From Marinobacter nauticus (GTDB lineage Bacteria > Pseudomonadota > Gammaproteobacteria > Pseudomonadales > Oleiphilaceae), in assembly GCF_003634635.1 (NCBI RefSeq), contig NZ_RBJB01000003.1, positions 838,631 to 902,630 of the forward strand: a stretch of 64,000 bases of DNA, in the 5' to 3' direction. The position numbers and the translations under genes are program-made. Under the pieces are notes generated by a model. The model was not told the origin of the DNA. It saw only the letters and a program-made list of their open reading frames with translations, and did not search any database. This document shows positions 39,765 through 45,298 of the stretch, piece by piece. Within the stretch, counting starts at the first letter, position 1. Each line of letters opens with the position of its first letter.

Positions 39765-39780
39765 TGGTGCAAAACCTGCT
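39765..39780 (+). promoter_or_regulatory. Possible sigma-54 promoter before the regulator gene
   Basis: The sequence TGGTGCAAAACCTGCT has the GG-N10-GC spacing required for a -24/-12 element and fair matches to the TGGCAC and TTGC boxes. It is about 145 bases upstream of the start codon. Only the dinucleotides and spacing are good, so confidence is limited. Confidence 0.4.
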
Positions 39781-39922
39781 ATCGATCAGCTGAGACATTA
39801 CCTGCATGGAAGCCCAGGCAGGTCACAGGGTCGTGGTCGACTATAGCAGTTCCCGCAGCAGTCCCCTCTCGTTTTCGAATACAGCGTTGTCGGTTGTTCA
39901 GTCCCTTTGCCGGAGCAAAGCT

Positions 39923-41305
39923 ATGGAACAGAAACGACCGCTTGTCTGGTTGTCAGCGGCCCCTGATGCTGAAAACACACAGCTGCCCAACCTTCCTGGC
40001 TGGCAGATGACCGTCATCAATAGTCAGCATGCCCCCGTGCTCCCAATGCCCGACTACCTGGGCAAACCCGTTGGGGTCTGTGTTCTCGCCGACCAGCCCC
40101 CCCCCACCCTGGAAAACACCAAAGGTTGGCTGGAAATGCTACCGGTAACCACCTGGTTGGCGGTGGTCGGGCGACAGCAACTGAACAACGCAATGGTGTG
40201 CCGCCTGATCCGCGACTACTGCCAGGATTACCACACTCTTCCACTGGATCATCAACGACTGATCAATAACCTTGGCCATATGTGGGGCATGCACGCCCTG
40301 AGCGCGAACCTGACTGGCCCGGAACTGCTCAGTTACCAGGACTATGTACTGGATGGTCCGTCACCGGCTATTCGTCAGGCCCGCAGCCTGTTGCGACGCT
40401 TCGCCGCAACTCAGGAACCCGTCATCGTCTACGGGGAAAACGGCACCGGCAAGGAGGCAGCAGCCCGGTTTATCCATGAACACTCGCCGCGCCACCATGG
40501 CCCCATAGCGGTCATCAACTGCGCCGCGCTACCCGAGCCCCTGACCCAGAGCGAACTGTTCGGCCATGAGCGCGGTGCCTTCACGCACGCACTGAAATCC
40601 AGAAAAGGCCGTATCGAAGCCGCCAACGGCGGCTCCCTGGTGCTATTGGGTGCCGATGAGCTTGGCCTTATGCAGCAATCTGCCATCCTGCGCTTCCTGG
40701 AGGAAGGCACAATCGAACCCGTGGGCTCGAATCATGCCGTGCAAGTCGATGTGCGGGTGATCGCCACCTGTAATACCCAACTGGACCAGAAAGTCGCAGA
40801 GGGCAGCTTCAGAAGCGACGTGTTCTATCGGCTTGGCAACCTCACGGTAACCCTGCCACCGCTCAGAGAACGTCTGGAAGACCTGCCATATCTGGCCCAA
40901 CGGGCCCTGGGCACATCGGAGGGAGAACACTACCGGCTTGGCAACGCCACCTTGCTGGCCACGGCCGCACATTCCTGGCCGGGTAATCTGCGGGAACTGC
41001 AGAACCGGCTTCGGCAAGCCGTCCTGCTTGCCCGGCAATTAAGCATCCAGCCCGAAGACCTGGGCTTGCCCCCGGTCAAATTACCCACACACATCGATCA
41101 GTTCAGCCTGGAGGCATACAGAGCCCGGGCGGACCAGGAGGCCATCGCGACCAGCCTCGCCCTGACGCATCACAACGTCTCGGCGGCCGCGAGGCTTCTG
41201 AATATTTCCCGAGTCTCGTTTTACCGACTGCTGGAAAAACACCAGCTGCAACCACCATCGAACCACGGCCTTTCCAAGAAACGCGATCATGGAGATCTGT
41301 CATGA
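39923..41305 (+). CDS. Sigma-54 activator-like regulator with degenerate AAA+ motifs
   Basis: A 460-residue bacterial enhancer-binding-like protein. The first 130 residues form a non-receiver N-terminal domain reminiscent of FleQ. The AAA+ domain has a good Walker A (GENGTGKE, residues 171-178) and arginine-finger region (FRSDVFYRLGNLTVTLPPLRER). However, the sigma-54 contact loop reads GAFTHA instead of GAFTGA, and the Walker B acidic pair is replaced (LVLLGADEL, where LFLDEI is expected). A Fis-type helix-turn-helix closes the protein (NVSAAARLLNISRVSFYRLL). The chosen ATG has a GGAG site. It overlaps the transporter gene by four bases and probably controls the neighbouring Fap-like operon, which has a sigma-54-type promoter. 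Confidence 0.82.
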   Translation: MEQKRPLVWLSAAPDAENTQLPNLPGWQMTVINSQHAPVLPMPDYLGKPVGVCVLADQPPPTLENTKGWLEMLPVTTWLAVVGRQQLNNAMVCRLIRDYCQDYHTLPLDHQRLINNLGHMWGMHALSANLTGPELLSYQDYVLDGPSPAIRQARSLLRRFAATQEPVIVYGENGTGKEAAARFIHEHSPRHHGPIAVINCAALPEPLTQSELFGHERGAFTHALKSRKGRIEAANGGSLVLLGADELGLMQQSAILRFLEEGTIEPVGSNHAVQVDVRVIATCNTQLDQKVAEGSFRSDVFYRLGNLTVTLPPLRERLEDLPYLAQRALGTSEGEHYRLGNATLLATAAHSWPGNLRELQNRLRQAVLLARQLSIQPEDLGLPPVKLPTHIDQFSLEAYRARADQEAIATSLALTHHNVSAAARLLNISRVSFYRLLEKHQLQPPSNHGLSKKRDHGDLS

Positions 41306-42363
41306 AACGTCTGGCCCTGTTCAGCTTCAGCCTATGCCTCACCCCGCTCGCCCTGGCCGCCCCCCCTGCCCCGGATGAACGCACCACCGGCACCGCCGAG
41401 CAGCGGGAAGCAGCAGCCCAGGACAGCGCAACTACCATTGCCTCCATTACCGCAGACCGGGGTATCGTCACCCGGCCCGGGCGATTTACCATCGAGCCAT
41501 CGTTTTCCCATGCCCATAGCAACGCCACCCGCGTGGCGGTTGAGGGGTACACAGTCATTCCAGCCCTGCTGGTGGGGTTGATCAACATCTCCGAGATCCA
41601 GCGCGATATCTTCGTCAGCGCATTATCCCTGAAATATGGTTTCACCAGCCGGCTGGAAGGCAGCCTGAGGGTGCCCTACCTGAGCATCCGGGAGGACCTT
41701 CGGGAACGGGAAGTGTTTCAGGGAACGCCGGTCGATACCGTCCGGGAATCGTCCGGTGATGGCATCGGTGATGCCGAGTTATCGATACGTTACCAGCTCA
41801 ACGATGGCCTCGATGGCTGGCCCTACCTGATCGGTACTTTCCGGACCAGGGCACCCACCGGCGAAGGCCCCTACGATGTCGACCAGCGAATCATTACCGA
41901 CAGCAGCGGCAACCCCATCGGGGTAGAGCTGGCCAACCGCCCCACCGGTTCAGGCTTCTGGGCAGTGGAACCGGGACTTTCCTTTATCTACCCTAGCGAC
42001 CCGGCAGTTCTGTTCGGAAACCTGAGTTACGCCTGGACTATCAAGGAAGAGCAGGGCTTTGAAAACGGTGGCACCGTCGACCCCGGCGACGTGGTGAGAT
42101 TCGGCTTCGGAATGGGCTTTGCGTTTAATGAACGCACTTCGTTCAGCCTGGGCTATGATCACTCGGTCATTCGCAAAACCACCTTTGAACATGGCAACGA
42201 CCTGTTCTCGTCCAACTTCGACCGAATTCAGGTGGGTTCACTGTCTTTTGGGCTGTCGCACCGGCTATCGCCCTCAACCACCATGAGCCTCACAGTGGCG
42301 GTGGGTGTAACCGACAATGCTCCAAACAGCGAGATCACCCTCAAGCTGCCGATCAATCTCTGA
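41302..42363 (+). CDS. FapF-like outer-membrane transporter
   Basis: A 353-residue exported protein with a signal peptide (cleaved near ALA-AP), a short Glu/Ala-rich helical stretch (residues 28-46) and then a predicted beta-barrel with alternating hydrophobic strands and a terminal strand ending in LKLPINL. This is the organisation of FapF, the trimeric pore that exports amyloid subunits in Pseudomonas, and of related proteins annotated as phenol-pathway transporters. The N-terminal helix is shorter than in FapF. It is translationally coupled to the regulator and ends seven bases before the convergent subunit operon. Confidence 0.7.
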   Translation: MKRLALFSFSLCLTPLALAAPPAPDERTTGTAEQREAAAQDSATTIASITADRGIVTRPGRFTIEPSFSHAHSNATRVAVEGYTVIPALLVGLINISEIQRDIFVSALSLKYGFTSRLEGSLRVPYLSIREDLREREVFQGTPVDTVRESSGDGIGDAELSIRYQLNDGLDGWPYLIGTFRTRAPTGEGPYDVDQRIITDSSGNPIGVELANRPTGSGFWAVEPGLSFIYPSDPAVLFGNLSYAWTIKEEQGFENGGTVDPGDVVRFGFGMGFAFNERTSFSLGYDHSVIRKTTFEHGNDLFSSNFDRIQVGSLSFGLSHRLSPSTTMSLTVAVGVTDNAPNSEITLKLPINL

Positions 42364-42369
42364 GGCTGA

Positions 42370-42834
42370 TCACGGCAGCATGGGCAGACTGAAATCCCGA
42401 GGCAACCGATAGGCGCCACCGAGGTTGTTCAGTTCAATATTCAATTGGCGGATGTTCTGGATGGTGGTTCCGTTCAGGCTGTTCTGGATAACCGTCATCC
42501 AGCCACCCGAGCCGGCCACTGCGGTATCAAGCGCCAGTTTTCCTGCTCCGCTCTCCCAAGCTCCCTGAATGGATGCCAACTGGGTGCTGAGTCTGTCTGC
42601 GGCCATGGGATCATTCAAATTCGGAATGGTCAGGCGGTTCACCACCAGAGTCTGACCGTTCACGGCCAGTACCTGCTCAAGGCCGATGGAGATCTCCAGA
42701 TTGTTCATCACAAAGCCGCCCCGGAGCTGATCCAGCTCGGCATCCGCCAGGCTGGTGACCGGTAACCGCAGCTCAGCATGAACCGGCCCGGCTAGCAGAC
42801 TCAGAGTAATCAGAACAGCCCATCCTTTAACCAT
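42370..42834 (-). CDS. Secreted VIQN-motif protein, Fap-like locus
   Basis: A 154-residue exported protein with a signal peptide (LITLSLLAGPVHA) and a mature N terminus containing LADAELDQLRGGF, which looks like a leader with a double glycine. The C-terminal third has MTVIQNSLNGTTIQNIRQLN, the same VIQN-type pattern seen in the small protein earlier in the operon. The start is placed so that the signal peptide is intact; the gene begins four bases after the C39 peptidase stop. It is the last gene of the operon. The position and motif suggest a minor subunit or chaperone comparable to FapA or FapE, but identity with either is not shown. Confidence 0.65.
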   Translation of the reverse strand: MVKGWAVLITLSLLAGPVHAELRLPVTSLADAELDQLRGGFVMNNLEISIGLEQVLAVNGQTLVVNRLTIPNLNDPMAADRLSTQLASIQGAWESGAGKLALDTAVAGSGGWMTVIQNSLNGTTIQNIRQLNIELNNLGGAYRLPRDFSLPMLP

Positions 42835-42838
42835 GGTC

Positions 42839-43624
42839 TTACCACTCCTGTGTACTGGGCCAGTATGGCAGGGTATGTCCCAATGCCGGCGAGCCAAGCC
42901 CCTTGAATAGAGGTGCCCGGGCCAGGCCCGGCCAGTCGTCCCGATCCAGAAAACTGGCTCGCCCCATATCCAGATGGCTGCGTATCACGAAGGCGGAGCC
43001 ATCCCAATGCTCCTGGAATTCTGCCCAACTGTAGGCTTTAAGTCCCCGGGCCGGATCGCCCACCAGCACTTCCTGATCACTGATGCCCTTGATCACCACA
43101 AAATGCCGATAACCTCCCAGCGTTACCAGAGCAATTACCGGAACGCGAACCTGATCCCGAAGGCCGGCTAGCGGCATGCGGAATCCATCTGCCAGATAAC
43201 CTTCGGACTCCAGATAACGCTTCATATCCAACATGGAGAAGCCCTGCTGACGCACTTTGTCCTGATCCGCCAGAGTCCACATGCCTTGAAATACTTCCTG
43301 CTCACTGACCTCATCGCCGTAGTGAAAAGACAACAACGATGCCAGTGCCGCCGAGCCACAGCTGAAATCGTATTCCTGCTGGAACACAGCCGAAAATCGC
43401 TGATTCTGAAAACTGGTGACAGACACCGGAACATCCCCGGCAGGCCCGGGGACCAGCACGGTTCCGGCGTGACCCGCGGTTGACAACATTCCGGCCATCA
43501 CACCGACCAGACAACACCTGAAAAGCGACCGGCGGGAAAGGCCGCCACGCCTGGGCGCTACGGGAGTTGCCGACCGCACCTGACGGCTGCGTTCCTGACG
43601 GTTCCCGATGCGATTGGTAGCCAT
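42839..43624 (-). CDS. C39-family peptidase, FapD-like
   Basis: A 261-residue protein whose core is a papain-like C39 fold: the cysteine is in QQEYDFSCGSAALASLL, the histidine in GGYRHFVVIKGI and the aspartate in LVGDPARG. FapD of the Pseudomonas amyloid system is a C39 peptidase of this kind. The first 50 residues are basic and contain SRRSLFRCCLVG before a hydrophobic stretch ending TAGHA, which resembles a twin-arginine signal, so it probably acts in the periplasm. A GAGGAGGGG ribosome-binding site precedes the start. Processing of the double-glycine-like subunits in this operon is the natural hypothesis. Confidence 0.8.
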   Translation of the reverse strand: MATNRIGNRQERSRQVRSATPVAPRRGGLSRRSLFRCCLVGVMAGMLSTAGHAGTVLVPGPAGDVPVSVTSFQNQRFSAVFQQEYDFSCGSAALASLLSFHYGDEVSEQEVFQGMWTLADQDKVRQQGFSMLDMKRYLESEGYLADGFRMPLAGLRDQVRVPVIALVTLGGYRHFVVIKGISDQEVLVGDPARGLKAYSWAEFQEHWDGSAFVIRSHLDMGRASFLDRDDWPGLARAPLFKGLGSPALGHTLPYWPSTQEW

Positions 43625-43639
43625 GGCGGCCGCCCCTCC

Positions 43640-43978
43640 TCAATGGTTGATGAGAATATTGATTTGCGTGCTGTCCTGAATGACCACCTGGTTGCCGGTG
43701 TTCTGGATGACGGTGGCAATGCCGCTCATGTTGCCGAAAGCCTGATCACTGATACGGTTGTCTCCCGTCTTGACCGGGCCAGACAACACATTGCCAGAGA
43801 CCAGAGCGTTCTGTTCTGACTCATTGAGTTGCCACTGGAGCGGAATTCCCTGTCGCCCGCTGGCAGCCTCCAACTGATCAGCACTCATTGGTTCCGCATC
43901 AGGCCAATCCCCGGCCCAGCTTGCGGACGCCACAGACACCAGCGCAGCCATCAGCATCCTGTTGATGAATCTGGCCAT
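43640..43978 (-). CDS. Small secreted VIQN-motif subunit, Fap-like locus
   Basis: A 112-residue exported protein with a signal peptide (LMAALVSVASASWA) and a C-terminal run IATVIQNTGNQVVIQDSTQ, which strongly recalls the repeat units of curli and Fap amyloid subunits (regularly spaced N, Q, V and I). It lies between the SDN-repeat gene and the C39 peptidase gene. The internal ATG is used because it opens the signal peptide directly. A nucleator or minor subunit role, comparable to FapB or CsgB, is inferred. Confidence 0.7.
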   Translation of the reverse strand: MARFINRMLMAALVSVASASWAGDWPDAEPMSADQLEAASGRQGIPLQWQLNESEQNALVSGNVLSGPVKTGDNRISDQAFGNMSGIATVIQNTGNQVVIQDSTQINILINH

Positions 43979-44030
43979 GACACATCTCCCGACAAAACCG
44001 GGCTGCCCTGGCCGGGCAGCCCGACCTGTC

Positions 44031-45188
44031 TCAGTTGCTGCCACCACCGGTACTCAGGTTGGACATTACGCTTACATTGGCCTGGGTTACGCTGCCAACG
44101 CCAGCATTCTGGGCAAATGCCCCGACGCCGGTGAAGTTGGCGGAGCCACCACTGATCTCGTTACCAGTGCGGGTATCCACATAGGAACCTTCACCGTTGG
44201 CGCTGCCATAAGTGACATTGGTGCCAGAGACCGAGCCGTTAAGCTCTGCATCGTTCATGAACACTTCCAACGACAGATTCAGCGTGGTGGCGCTGTTGTC
44301 TGAGTTGTCACTGCTATCGCTGTTGTAGGAATCGGTAGCGTTGGTGGAGTTGTCAGAACTGTCACTGTTGCCACTGTCCGCGATCTTGAACGAATCGTTC
44401 ACGTTGGTGCTGTTGTCTGAATTATCGGAGTTGTCAGAGTTATCTGAGTTGTCCGAATTGTCGGAGTTATCCGAGTTATCCGATGCATCGGTGTTGCCAC
44501 TATCGGCAATCTTGAAGGCATCGTTCACGTTGGTGCTGTTATCGGAATTGTCAGAGTTATCTGAGTTGTCCGAATTATCGGAGTTATCCGAGTTGTCTGA
44601 CATGTCATTGCCACTATCAGCAACCTTGAACGAATCGCTGACGGTGGTGCTGTTGTCAGAGTTATCCGAGTTATCGGAGTTGTCAGACGCATCGGTATTG
44701 CCACTGTCGGCAATCTTGAAGGCATCGTTGACACTGGTGCTGTTGTCCGAATTATCGGAATTATCGGAGTTGTCAGACGCATCGGTATTGCCGCTGTCGG
44801 CAATCTTGAAGGCGTCATTCAGGTTGGTGCTGCTGTCCGAATTGTCTGAATTATCCGAGTTGTTCGAATTATCGGAGTTATTGGAGTTGTCCGAATTATT
44901 CGAGTTATCAGACATGTCGTTTCCACTGTCGGCGATCTTGAAAGAGTCCGCCACATCGGTACTGTTGTCTGAATTGTTGGAGTTATCGGAGCTGTCCGAG
45001 TTATCGGAGTTGTTGGTGGAGTTGTCGTTGCCAGAGTCCGCGTTACCGGAATAGTTGGTATTGGCAGCGGAGTTGTCGTTGGCATTGTTGTTGGGGTCAC
45101 CGTCCCCACCCTGGTCAGCCAGTGCAAATCCGGAGATACCCATGCTCATGGCGATGGCAGCGGCTAGCAGATTCTTCTTGGTATTCAT
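44031..45188 (-). CDS. Secreted SDN-repeat protein, probable main Fap-like subunit
   Basis: A 385-residue exported protein with a signal peptide (AAAIAMSMGISGFALA). The mature chain is built from Ser-Asp-Asn triplet arrays of varying length, interrupted six times by a conserved motif (D-A/S-F-K-I/V-ADSGN) followed by TDASDN or a variant. The last 90 residues leave the triplets and contain GVGAFAQNAGVGSVTQANVS, a pattern of the Fap/curli-like subunit type. There are no RTX nonapeptides and no cysteines. An AAAGGACA ribosome-binding site and a sigma-54-type promoter lie upstream. Base use is more A/T-rich than in neighbouring genes because of the triplet codons. I do not recognise a described family; a structural amyloid or adhesive fibre is inferred from context. 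Confidence 0.75.
   Translation of the reverse strand: MNTKKNLLAAAIAMSMGISGFALADQGGDGDPNNNANDNSAANTNYSGNADSGNDNSTNNSDNSDSSDNSNNSDNSTDVADSFKIADSGNDMSDNSNNSDNSNNSDNSNNSDNSDNSDSSTNLNDAFKIADSGNTDASDNSDNSDNSDNSTSVNDAFKIADSGNTDASDNSDNSDNSDNSTTVSDSFKVADSGNDMSDNSDNSDNSDNSDNSDNSDNSTNVNDAFKIADSGNTDASDNSDNSDNSDNSDNSDNSDNSDNSTNVNDSFKIADSGNSDSSDNSTNATDSYNSDSSDNSDNSATTLNLSLEVFMNDAELNGSVSGTNVTYGSANGEGSYVDTRTGNEISGGSANFTGVGAFAQNAGVGSVTQANVSVMSNLSTGGGSN
44292..45030 (-). repeat. 9-base minisatellite coding for Ser-Asp-Asn
   Basis: The triplets are encoded by degenerate nine-base units (TCNGAYAAY on the coding strand, visible as GAGTTATCC and variants on the plus strand) in blocks of about two to eight units, separated by the conserved DxFK(I/V)ADSGN cassettes. 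Synonymous changes scatter through the units, so the array is old but still of a kind prone to slippage in multiples of three residues without frameshift. Confidence 0.85.
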
Positions 45189-45283
45189 GATGTCATGTCC
45201 TTTTGATGGTATTGGCTTAAAGGGGTCCAACCCATCCCGCCAGCATTCGGGTAAGCCAAGGTCCAGACCCGCCGAAGACAAGA

Positions 45284-45298
45284 GCGATTCCCGTGCCA
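45284..45298 (-). promoter_or_regulatory. Sigma-54 promoter of the SDN-repeat operon
   Basis: On the minus strand the sequence TGGCACGGGAATCGC has a perfect TGGCACG -24 box and a near-consensus TCGC -12 box with the exact GG-N10-GC spacing. The start codon is about 95 bases downstream. It is the best sigma-54 element I found in the window and agrees with the enhancer-binding-like regulator gene at the other end of the locus. Confidence 0.75.

Follow-up and report, generated by a model that had tools for sequence, protein, structure and literature searches.

We analysed a 64,000-nucleotide stretch of Marinobacter nauticus (contig NZ_RBJB01000003.1, hereafter the window) and found in it, at positions 39,923 to 45,298, a six-gene locus that appears to be a sister branch of the Fap functional-amyloid export system. 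It encodes a VpsR-type regulator (REG) and a FapF-like outer-membrane barrel (FF) on the forward strand, then a convergent group on the reverse strand made up, in this order, of the small secreted protein S2, a FapD-like C39 peptidase, a second small secreted protein, S1, and a large secreted subunit, SUB, rich in Ser-Asp-Asn (SDN) triplets. A first-pass annotation made from the sequence alone had listed all these parts at this place, and all are present. The gene set is conserved in Marinobacter and spread across the Proteobacteria. In the reading that we consider probable from homology, the barrel would export the SDN subunit and the C39 peptidase would trim the leaders of S1 and S2.

The barrel and the peptidase resemble FapF and FapD

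The proposed likeness of the transporter to FapF and of the peptidase to FapD was borne out by profile searches. The barrel matches the NCBIfam FapF profile (1.8e-43, 149 bits, cut-off 700) and FapF in the PDB (7.1e-34). In a fold comparison, the best matches of its model (pLDDT 84.8) were the crystal structures of FapF (E 1.1e-22, TM 0.84 by target), followed as a family by COG4313 at 5.6e-11. The peptidase matches NCBIfam FapD (7.7e-45, 153 bits, cut-off 330) and Pfam C39 (3.2e-20), and the C39 Cys, His and Asp positions are invariant in 13 and 15 aligned rows. The canonical fap locus of a gammaproteobacterium other than Pseudomonas (L094) also falls under the NCBI cut-offs (FapF 378 bits, FapD 260), so that these equivalog cut-offs do not decide the assignment and it is the gap in score that matters.

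Conservation in Marinobacter and distribution across the Proteobacteria

A search of 124 Marinobacter genomes with the C39 peptidase gave a match in 112 (E <1e-50 in 73, weaker in the rest). We fetched the neighbourhoods from 40 of the 72 other genomes with a strong match, and in 39 of the 40 REG, FF, S2, C39 and S1 are arranged alike, S1 being adjacent to a protein rich in S, D and N. Counting the window, this gives 40 Marinobacter subunits, all of the SDN type. Since 39 of the 40 neighbourhoods repeat both the order of the genes and the subunit, the locus is conserved far beyond chance. The exception (L072, from genome G070 of the same genus) has diverged C39, barrel, S1 and S2 genes and a Gly-rich subunit lacking the C-terminal module described below.

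We then looked outside the genus, with the window genome counted throughout. At the level of the order, an S1 profile built from Marinobacter found the small protein in 10 of 293 genomes (4 of 118 genera) and, at that of the class, in 14 of 369 (13 of 272 genera); a wider S1 profile found it in 16 of 398 genomes of the phylum (11 of 212 genera). All 16 loci outside the genus chosen by S1 also encode C39, S2 and the barrel; a protein with the subunit module as top family is present in 14 and the regulator in nine. With a class-wide C39 alignment as the sole bait, the named genome collection yielded at least 575 relatives, of which the best 80 loci were taken. In every one of the 80, C39 is flanked on its own strand by S1 immediately upstream and S2 immediately downstream. 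A barrel is found in 77 of them, sharing the strand in 50 and lying on the other one in 27, and a subunit module in 66, with all five genes together in 65. The genera among these C39-bait loci include Lysobacter, Dyella, Luteibacter, Pseudoxanthomonas, Burkholderia, Paraburkholderia, Duganella, Massilia, Cupriavidus, Ralstonia, Ectothiorhodospira, Methylobacter, Geotalea, Telmatospirillum and Phenylobacterium.

Two genomes show other states of the locus: S1 and C39 are tandemly duplicated in L057 (G097:C11:1028953-1032869), and in a decaying copy at G013:C10:549294-549951 the C39 match is shortened and a stop interrupts S1.

S1 and S2 carry C39-type leaders

The identity of the two small secreted proteins can be refined: S2 appears to be a short relative of FapE, and S1 to be homologous to S2. 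The NCBIfam FapE match of S2 (6.8e-4, residues 11-52) covers the leader and the following segment only, and S1 has no relevant match in Pfam or NCBIfam. Profile-profile (HMM-HMM) comparisons, whose P values are for single pairs and uncorrected over 24 comparisons, link S1 to S2 (P 2.6e-14), S1 to the SUB C-terminal module (5.3e-9), S2 to FapE (1.3e-7), S1 to FapE (6.5e-6) and S1 to FapB (1.2e-4). For the six pairs tested in this way, the reversed and 20 column-shuffled versions scored at background. A FapB match at 20 bits was also obtained for a single relative S1 (L179).

Substrates of double-glycine (C39) peptidases carry a leader with L at position -7 from the cut and G at -2 and -1. In S1 and S2 a leader of this type comes after the signal-like segment. 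The window S2 has the L(-7), G(-2) and G(-1) of such leaders, and over 106 rows the S2 columns are nearly uniform (L(-7) 103, R(-3) 105, G(-2) 106, G(-1) 106). The corresponding columns of S1, also over 106 rows, are L(-7) 103, G(-2) 92 and G(-1) 65, with R in 26. In FapE the dipeptide RG is present in 11 of 11 sequences, followed by R or K. The pattern [LMIV]xxxRG[GRK], sought in the first 130 residues, occurs in 53 of 106 S1, 82 of 106 S2, 11 of 11 FapE and 15 of 77 barrel proteins; over the same span it was found in none of 14 FapB, 14 FapC, 7 FapA and 113 SUB proteins. A variant pattern, [DEQ]LxxxRG, is also seen in one of 113 SUB and 11 of 77 barrel sequences.

According to a study of Pseudomonas (PMC5557850), FapC secretion requires FapD activity and FapF, only FapE among the Fap proteins shows complete N-terminal processing, and the target of FapD was unclear as of 2017, the Fap proteins being said to lack canonical C39 sequences. 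From the leader columns we infer that FapD-type enzymes cut at a double-glycine-type segment, which makes the FapE segment a candidate FapD cut site.

Small proteins of other kinds were seen nearby in some loci. Proteins of 104-139 aa encoded near fapB in the canonical loci L090, L095, L099, L092 and L089 (in L089 between C and B) carry a C39-type leader segment, most with a VILWDE motif; to our knowledge they fall outside the FapA-F set. In three loci of the new type a secreted-looking protein of 137-153 aa, Glu/Leu/Arg- or Gln-rich and perhaps helical, is encoded between S2 and the barrel (L137:6306-6734, L138:9612-10073 and L139:5673-6086).

A branch separate from canonical Fap

We compared the locus with 16 canonical fap loci, defined by a FapE match below the NCBI cut-off (none of 369 genomes was above it) together with gene content, and including no named Pseudomonas. 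The top families on these loci were FapE, FapD and FapF in 16 each and FapB and FapC in 15 each, with S1, S2 and SUB in none, the Fap profiles having been built from the same loci. Weak secondary matches were recorded for S1 in six loci, S2 in four and SUB in one.

For the phylogenetic trees we sampled 10 of the 40 Marinobacter rows and, among the 80 named loci, every second one. Named C39 sequences were trimmed so as to start 70 residues ahead of the active site, and of the named and Fap barrels the last 400 residues were used. In the C39 tree the new branch (67 rows) is supported at 95/95 and Fap (10 rows) at 98/86; in the barrel tree the values are 87/98 (66 rows, unstarred) and 98/94 (12 rows). 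Neither tree holds a named Pseudomonas row, the single Fil row is a long branch of unsure placement, and a few rows are duplicates (barrel L150 equals L072; L147 and L179 are identical). Both trees indicate that the locus is a sister branch to canonical Fap, lying outside Fap for FapD as well as for FapF.

These data bear on the possibility that the locus is a canonical fap operon that has drifted, with S1 as FapB, S2 as FapE and SUB as FapC, and with an ordinary Fap amyloid as the fibre. The S2-FapE, S1-FapE and S1-FapB similarities given above speak for it, as does a weak match of the SUB module to the FapB C-terminus (P 5.2e-4); FapC linkers are variable according to a 2013 survey (PMC3792158), and one FapC (that of L094) has a TN-repeat N-terminus. 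We nevertheless regard such a drift as unlikely. As the first-pass annotation had remarked, the main subunit does not look like FapC: profile comparison found no homology with narrow or wide alignments (module versus FapC P 0.33), and SUB has no match to the NCBIfam FapC profile, which gives 186 bits with the canonical FapC of L094. Moreover, S1 carries a C39-type leader that FapB lacks (0/14), the new branch and Fap separate in both trees, and none of the Fap-type genes of the 16 canonical loci had S1, S2 or SUB as its top family.

The subunit combines a constant module with an exchangeable body

The window SUB (385 aa) contains 84 S, 82 N and 65 D residues, and the 34 SDN triplets and six D[SA]FK[IV]ADSGN cassettes that we counted agree with its earlier description. 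Tandem Repeats Finder detected a 90-base array of 3.4 copies (score 388) in the gene, and searches of Pfam and NCBIfam returned nothing relevant for the protein. In the genus alignment the conserved part is the last ~40 residues. What the subunits have in common is a signal-like start and this C-terminal Q/N module, with the consensus qsAAGI.v.aQNSG.aSLvQQsVnVQANL.vG (95 rows).

The view of the subunit as SDN-built holds for 40 Marinobacter subunits, but across the family SDN is one of at least two interchangeable bodies. Among 120 classed subunits, taken as the longest one per locus and with L139, L146 and L148 left out, 61 bodies are SDN-rich (40 of these from Marinobacter), 50 Gly/Ala-rich, eight of other composition and one too short. 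The median net charge per residue is -0.14 for the SDN-rich bodies (n=61) and -0.007, i.e. near neutral, for the Gly/Ala-rich ones. Acidic SDN bodies occur in Marinobacter, Ectothiorhodospira and others, and Gly/Ala-rich ones in Xanthomonadales and Burkholderiales. Only three changes of body type are required over 52 rows on the C39 tree and two on the barrel tree, and body type is therefore best seen as a slowly changing lineage trait. Alignments and composition thus indicate that the body, acidic SDN-rich or Gly/Ala-rich, is interchangeable while the C-terminal module persists.

Such a composition could also be that of a soluble or gel-forming polyelectrolyte, for instance a Ca-binding coat or an adhesin, secreted without forming any amyloid or fibre, the Q/N module being only a secretion or anchoring tag. 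The acidic charge of the 61 SDN-type subunits fits this proposal, and so does the retention of the module where neutral Gly/Ala-rich bodies have been swapped in. Yet the module resembles Fap-type Q/N repeats and is common to SUB and S1, like that of a subunit-nucleator pair, and relatives of the machinery make fibres; we judge this alternative unlikely too, and a little less probable than the drifted operon.

A tandem pair of subunit genes precedes S1 in seven of the 80 best C39 loci (L160, L185, L190, L199, L204, L210 and L227). A search of 5.8 billion proteins with the SDN C-terminus returned seven, those with names being from Marinobacter; the profile searches of genomes reached further. 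Two of these hits (P0001 and P0005) are SDN subunits filed publicly as 'dentin sialophosphoprotein', a name based on composition only.

Locus layout and sigma-54 control

The features of the locus are given in Table 1. A gene order different from that of fap had been noted from the sequence and is the rule in Marinobacter, where regulator and barrel converge on the subunit operon. The outer end of the locus, position 45298, coincides with the boundary of a conserved sigma-54 promoter.

Table 1. Features of the SDN-subunit locus, in positions of the window.
Feature	Position	Strand	Evidence and remarks
REG, VpsR-type sigma-54 activator (VpsR domain, AAA+, Fis HTH)	39923..41305	+	ORF start possible at 39806; Pfam PF20161 1.2e-12, PF00158 6.5e-53, PF02954 2.4e-6; neighbour in 39/40 fetched genus neighbourhoods
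FF, FapF-like outer-membrane barrel, 353 aa	41302..42363	+	NCBIfam FapF 1.8e-43, PDB FapF 7.1e-34, model TM 0.84 by target
S2, small secreted protein, short FapE relative	42370..42834	-	NCBIfam FapE 6.8e-4 (residues 11-52); profile vs FapE P 1.3e-7
S2 double-glycine-type leader ADAELDQLRGG (cleavage predicted)	42715..42747	-	Conserved leader columns, 106 rows
C39 peptidase, FapD-like	42839..43624	-	NCBIfam FapD 7.7e-45, Pfam C39 3.2e-20
S1, small secreted protein, C-terminal module homologous to that of SUB	43640..43978	-	Profile vs SUB C-terminus P 5.3e-9, vs S2 2.6e-14
S1 C39-type leader SADQLEAASGR (cleavage predicted)	43853..43885	-	SGR where most relatives have RGG
SUB, SDN-repeat secreted subunit, 385 aa	44031..45188	-	ORF, repeats, composition
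SUB body, SDN with six D[SA]FK[IV]ADSGN cassettes	44289..45026	-	Composition; period-90 array
SUB conserved C-terminal Q/N module (NEISGGSANFTGVGAFAQNAGVGSVTQANVSVMSNLS...)	44034..44162	-	Genus alignment, profile comparison
Sigma-54 promoter TGGCACGGGAATCGCT	45283..45298	-	110 nt ahead of SUB start codon; >=9/11 positions in 39/40 Marinobacter rows
Weak sigma-54-like site upstream of REG	39765..39780	+	8/11 consensus positions in window

A sigma-54 site with at least 9 of 11 consensus positions lies upstream of SUB in 39 of 40 Marinobacter rows, against 0.9 expected from shuffles, these rows being related and not independent. Elsewhere such sites precede 46 of 78 subunits (2.4 expected; 3 of 78 on the reverse strand), the 78 regions being those with at least 250 bases among 85 subunits with rule-chosen starts, L072 of the genus included. 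This promoter fits REG, since a sigma-54 activator is encoded beside the barrel. Upstream of REG itself, a sigma-54-like site with at least 8 of 11 positions is found in 22 of 40 rows (4.4 expected). Consensus scans for sigma-70 promoters (3 found, 2.4 expected) and for terminators (7 found, 5.0 expected) gave no clear excess.

VpsR-like sigma-54 regulators are also encoded near 15 of the 16 canonical fap loci (L089-L104 except L091), with scores of 97 to 575 bits, the lowest from a fragment at a contig end. It is possible, from these matches, that a VpsR-like sigma-54 regulator is a general fap regulator. VpsR-type proteins respond to cyclic di-GMP (c-di-GMP).

A proposed export mechanism

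In the mechanism that we favour, SUB, S1, S2, C39 and the barrel would enter the periplasm by Sec, and C39 would cleave both small proteins at the GG-type site. Once trimmed, S1 could act as a nucleator or a cap, by pairing of its module with that at the C-terminus of SUB. SUB itself would pass unfolded through the barrel and be kept at the surface by its C-terminal module, with the acidic SDN body stretched out as a polyanionic fibre or brush. As one element of matrix production, the VpsR-like activator would turn on the subunit operon via sigma-54, probably in concert with c-di-GMP. We infer export and trimming from homology to FapF and FapD; SUB likely ends up at the cell surface or in the biofilm matrix.

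Several observations weigh against this mechanism. The case for SUB export is built on its gene neighbourhood and on analogy, because SUB has no FapC match and its similarity to FapB is weak. With a net charge of -60, the strongly acidic SDN body is unlikely to be a cross-beta core. Only 59 residues precede the first strand of the window barrel (fewer than 70 in nine of 35 aligned barrels, 105-177 in the rest), which leaves no room for the N-terminal coiled coil required by Pseudomonas FapF. As this coiled coil serves FapC secretion there (PMC5557850), short barrels would need another way to gate. The Marinobacter S1 has SGR instead of GG at the proposed cut, i.e. G(-2) R(-1) in the window, and the AlphaFold model of S1 is of low confidence (pLDDT 64.6). 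Finally, the regulator is present in only 28 of the 80 best C39 loci, and no SUB match was found in 14 of these 80; six of the 14 have fewer than 410 bases before S1, and eight, several of them alphaproteobacterial, have 410 or more.

On balance, we lean towards a broader proposal as well: that a second, Proteobacteria-wide Fap-type export family uses a universal Q/N module and a C39-matured partner as a dock for lineage-specific low-complexity polymers, and that periplasmic C39 enzymes, FapD included, are double-glycine-type proteases targeting S1, S2 and FapE. If so, Fap would be one branch of a larger export family. The 2013 survey (PMC3792158) had already concluded that two larger protein families probably include FapD and FapF, and left the other members unspecified. 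The target question of FapD would become directly testable at a concrete cut site, and the locus would offer a natural modular exporter of acidic or glycine-rich repeat polymers, relevant to biofilm biology and biomaterials.

Comparison with known systems

Searches of the literature on Marinobacter fap or amyloid, Fil, Fap-like and C39 systems found no account of this gene set, most subscription papers and bioRxiv lying outside their reach. As far as they go, the gene set thus appears to be an undescribed sister family of Fap export. The suggestion of an undescribed branch in the first-pass annotation holds to that extent, but the locus is no local oddity, being Proteobacteria-wide.

In curli, too, a large and a small secreted protein share a Q/N-rich module, an analogy to SUB and S1, but no Csg family (CsgA-G) is among the Pfam and NCBIfam matches of the six proteins. 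The bacteriocin ABC exporters of the PCAT type resemble the new locus in their C39 peptidase fold and in the double-glycine leader with L at -7; unlike them, the peptidase of the locus is free-standing, with a signal-like N-terminus (judged by eye) and no ABC module. Bacteriocin export was dropped as a candidate because none of the six genes encodes an ABC transporter (Pfam).

A C39 peptidase and an outer-membrane protein related to FapF also occur together in Fil, a putative pilus system of Acinetobacter. We nonetheless consider it very improbable that the locus encodes Fil-type fimbriae or a C39 bacteriocin exporter, for although the peptidase matches FilB (1.7e-30, its second-best family) and the barrel FilC (1.1e-14), and Fil fimbriae were deduced on Acinetobacter Tol 5 cells (PMC3498257), FapD and FapF outscore FilB and FilC, the ABC transporter is absent, and the same genome holds a separate FilB-FilC-FilD locus. 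That locus, on another contig (L003:4657-9282; 1.4e-85, 8.4e-103 and 3.3e-162), includes the FadL-type protein FilD and an extra 358-aa protein and has no S1, S2 or SUB match; conversely, none of the six proteins of the SDN locus matches FilA or FilD in NCBIfam.

Fap (FapA-F) is the closest relative. It has in common with the new locus a FapF-type barrel, a FapD-type periplasmic C39 peptidase, a FapE-like small protein and VpsR-like sigma-54 regulators nearby. It differs in that the new locus has no FapC or FapA match, that its subunit consists of one C-terminal module and a low-complexity body, that S1 carries a C39-type leader where FapB has none, and that barrel and regulator are convergent to the subunit operon in Marinobacter. 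The SUB-S1 pair, a large and a small protein with one common module, nevertheless recalls FapC and FapB, which PMC3792158 describes as internal homologues.

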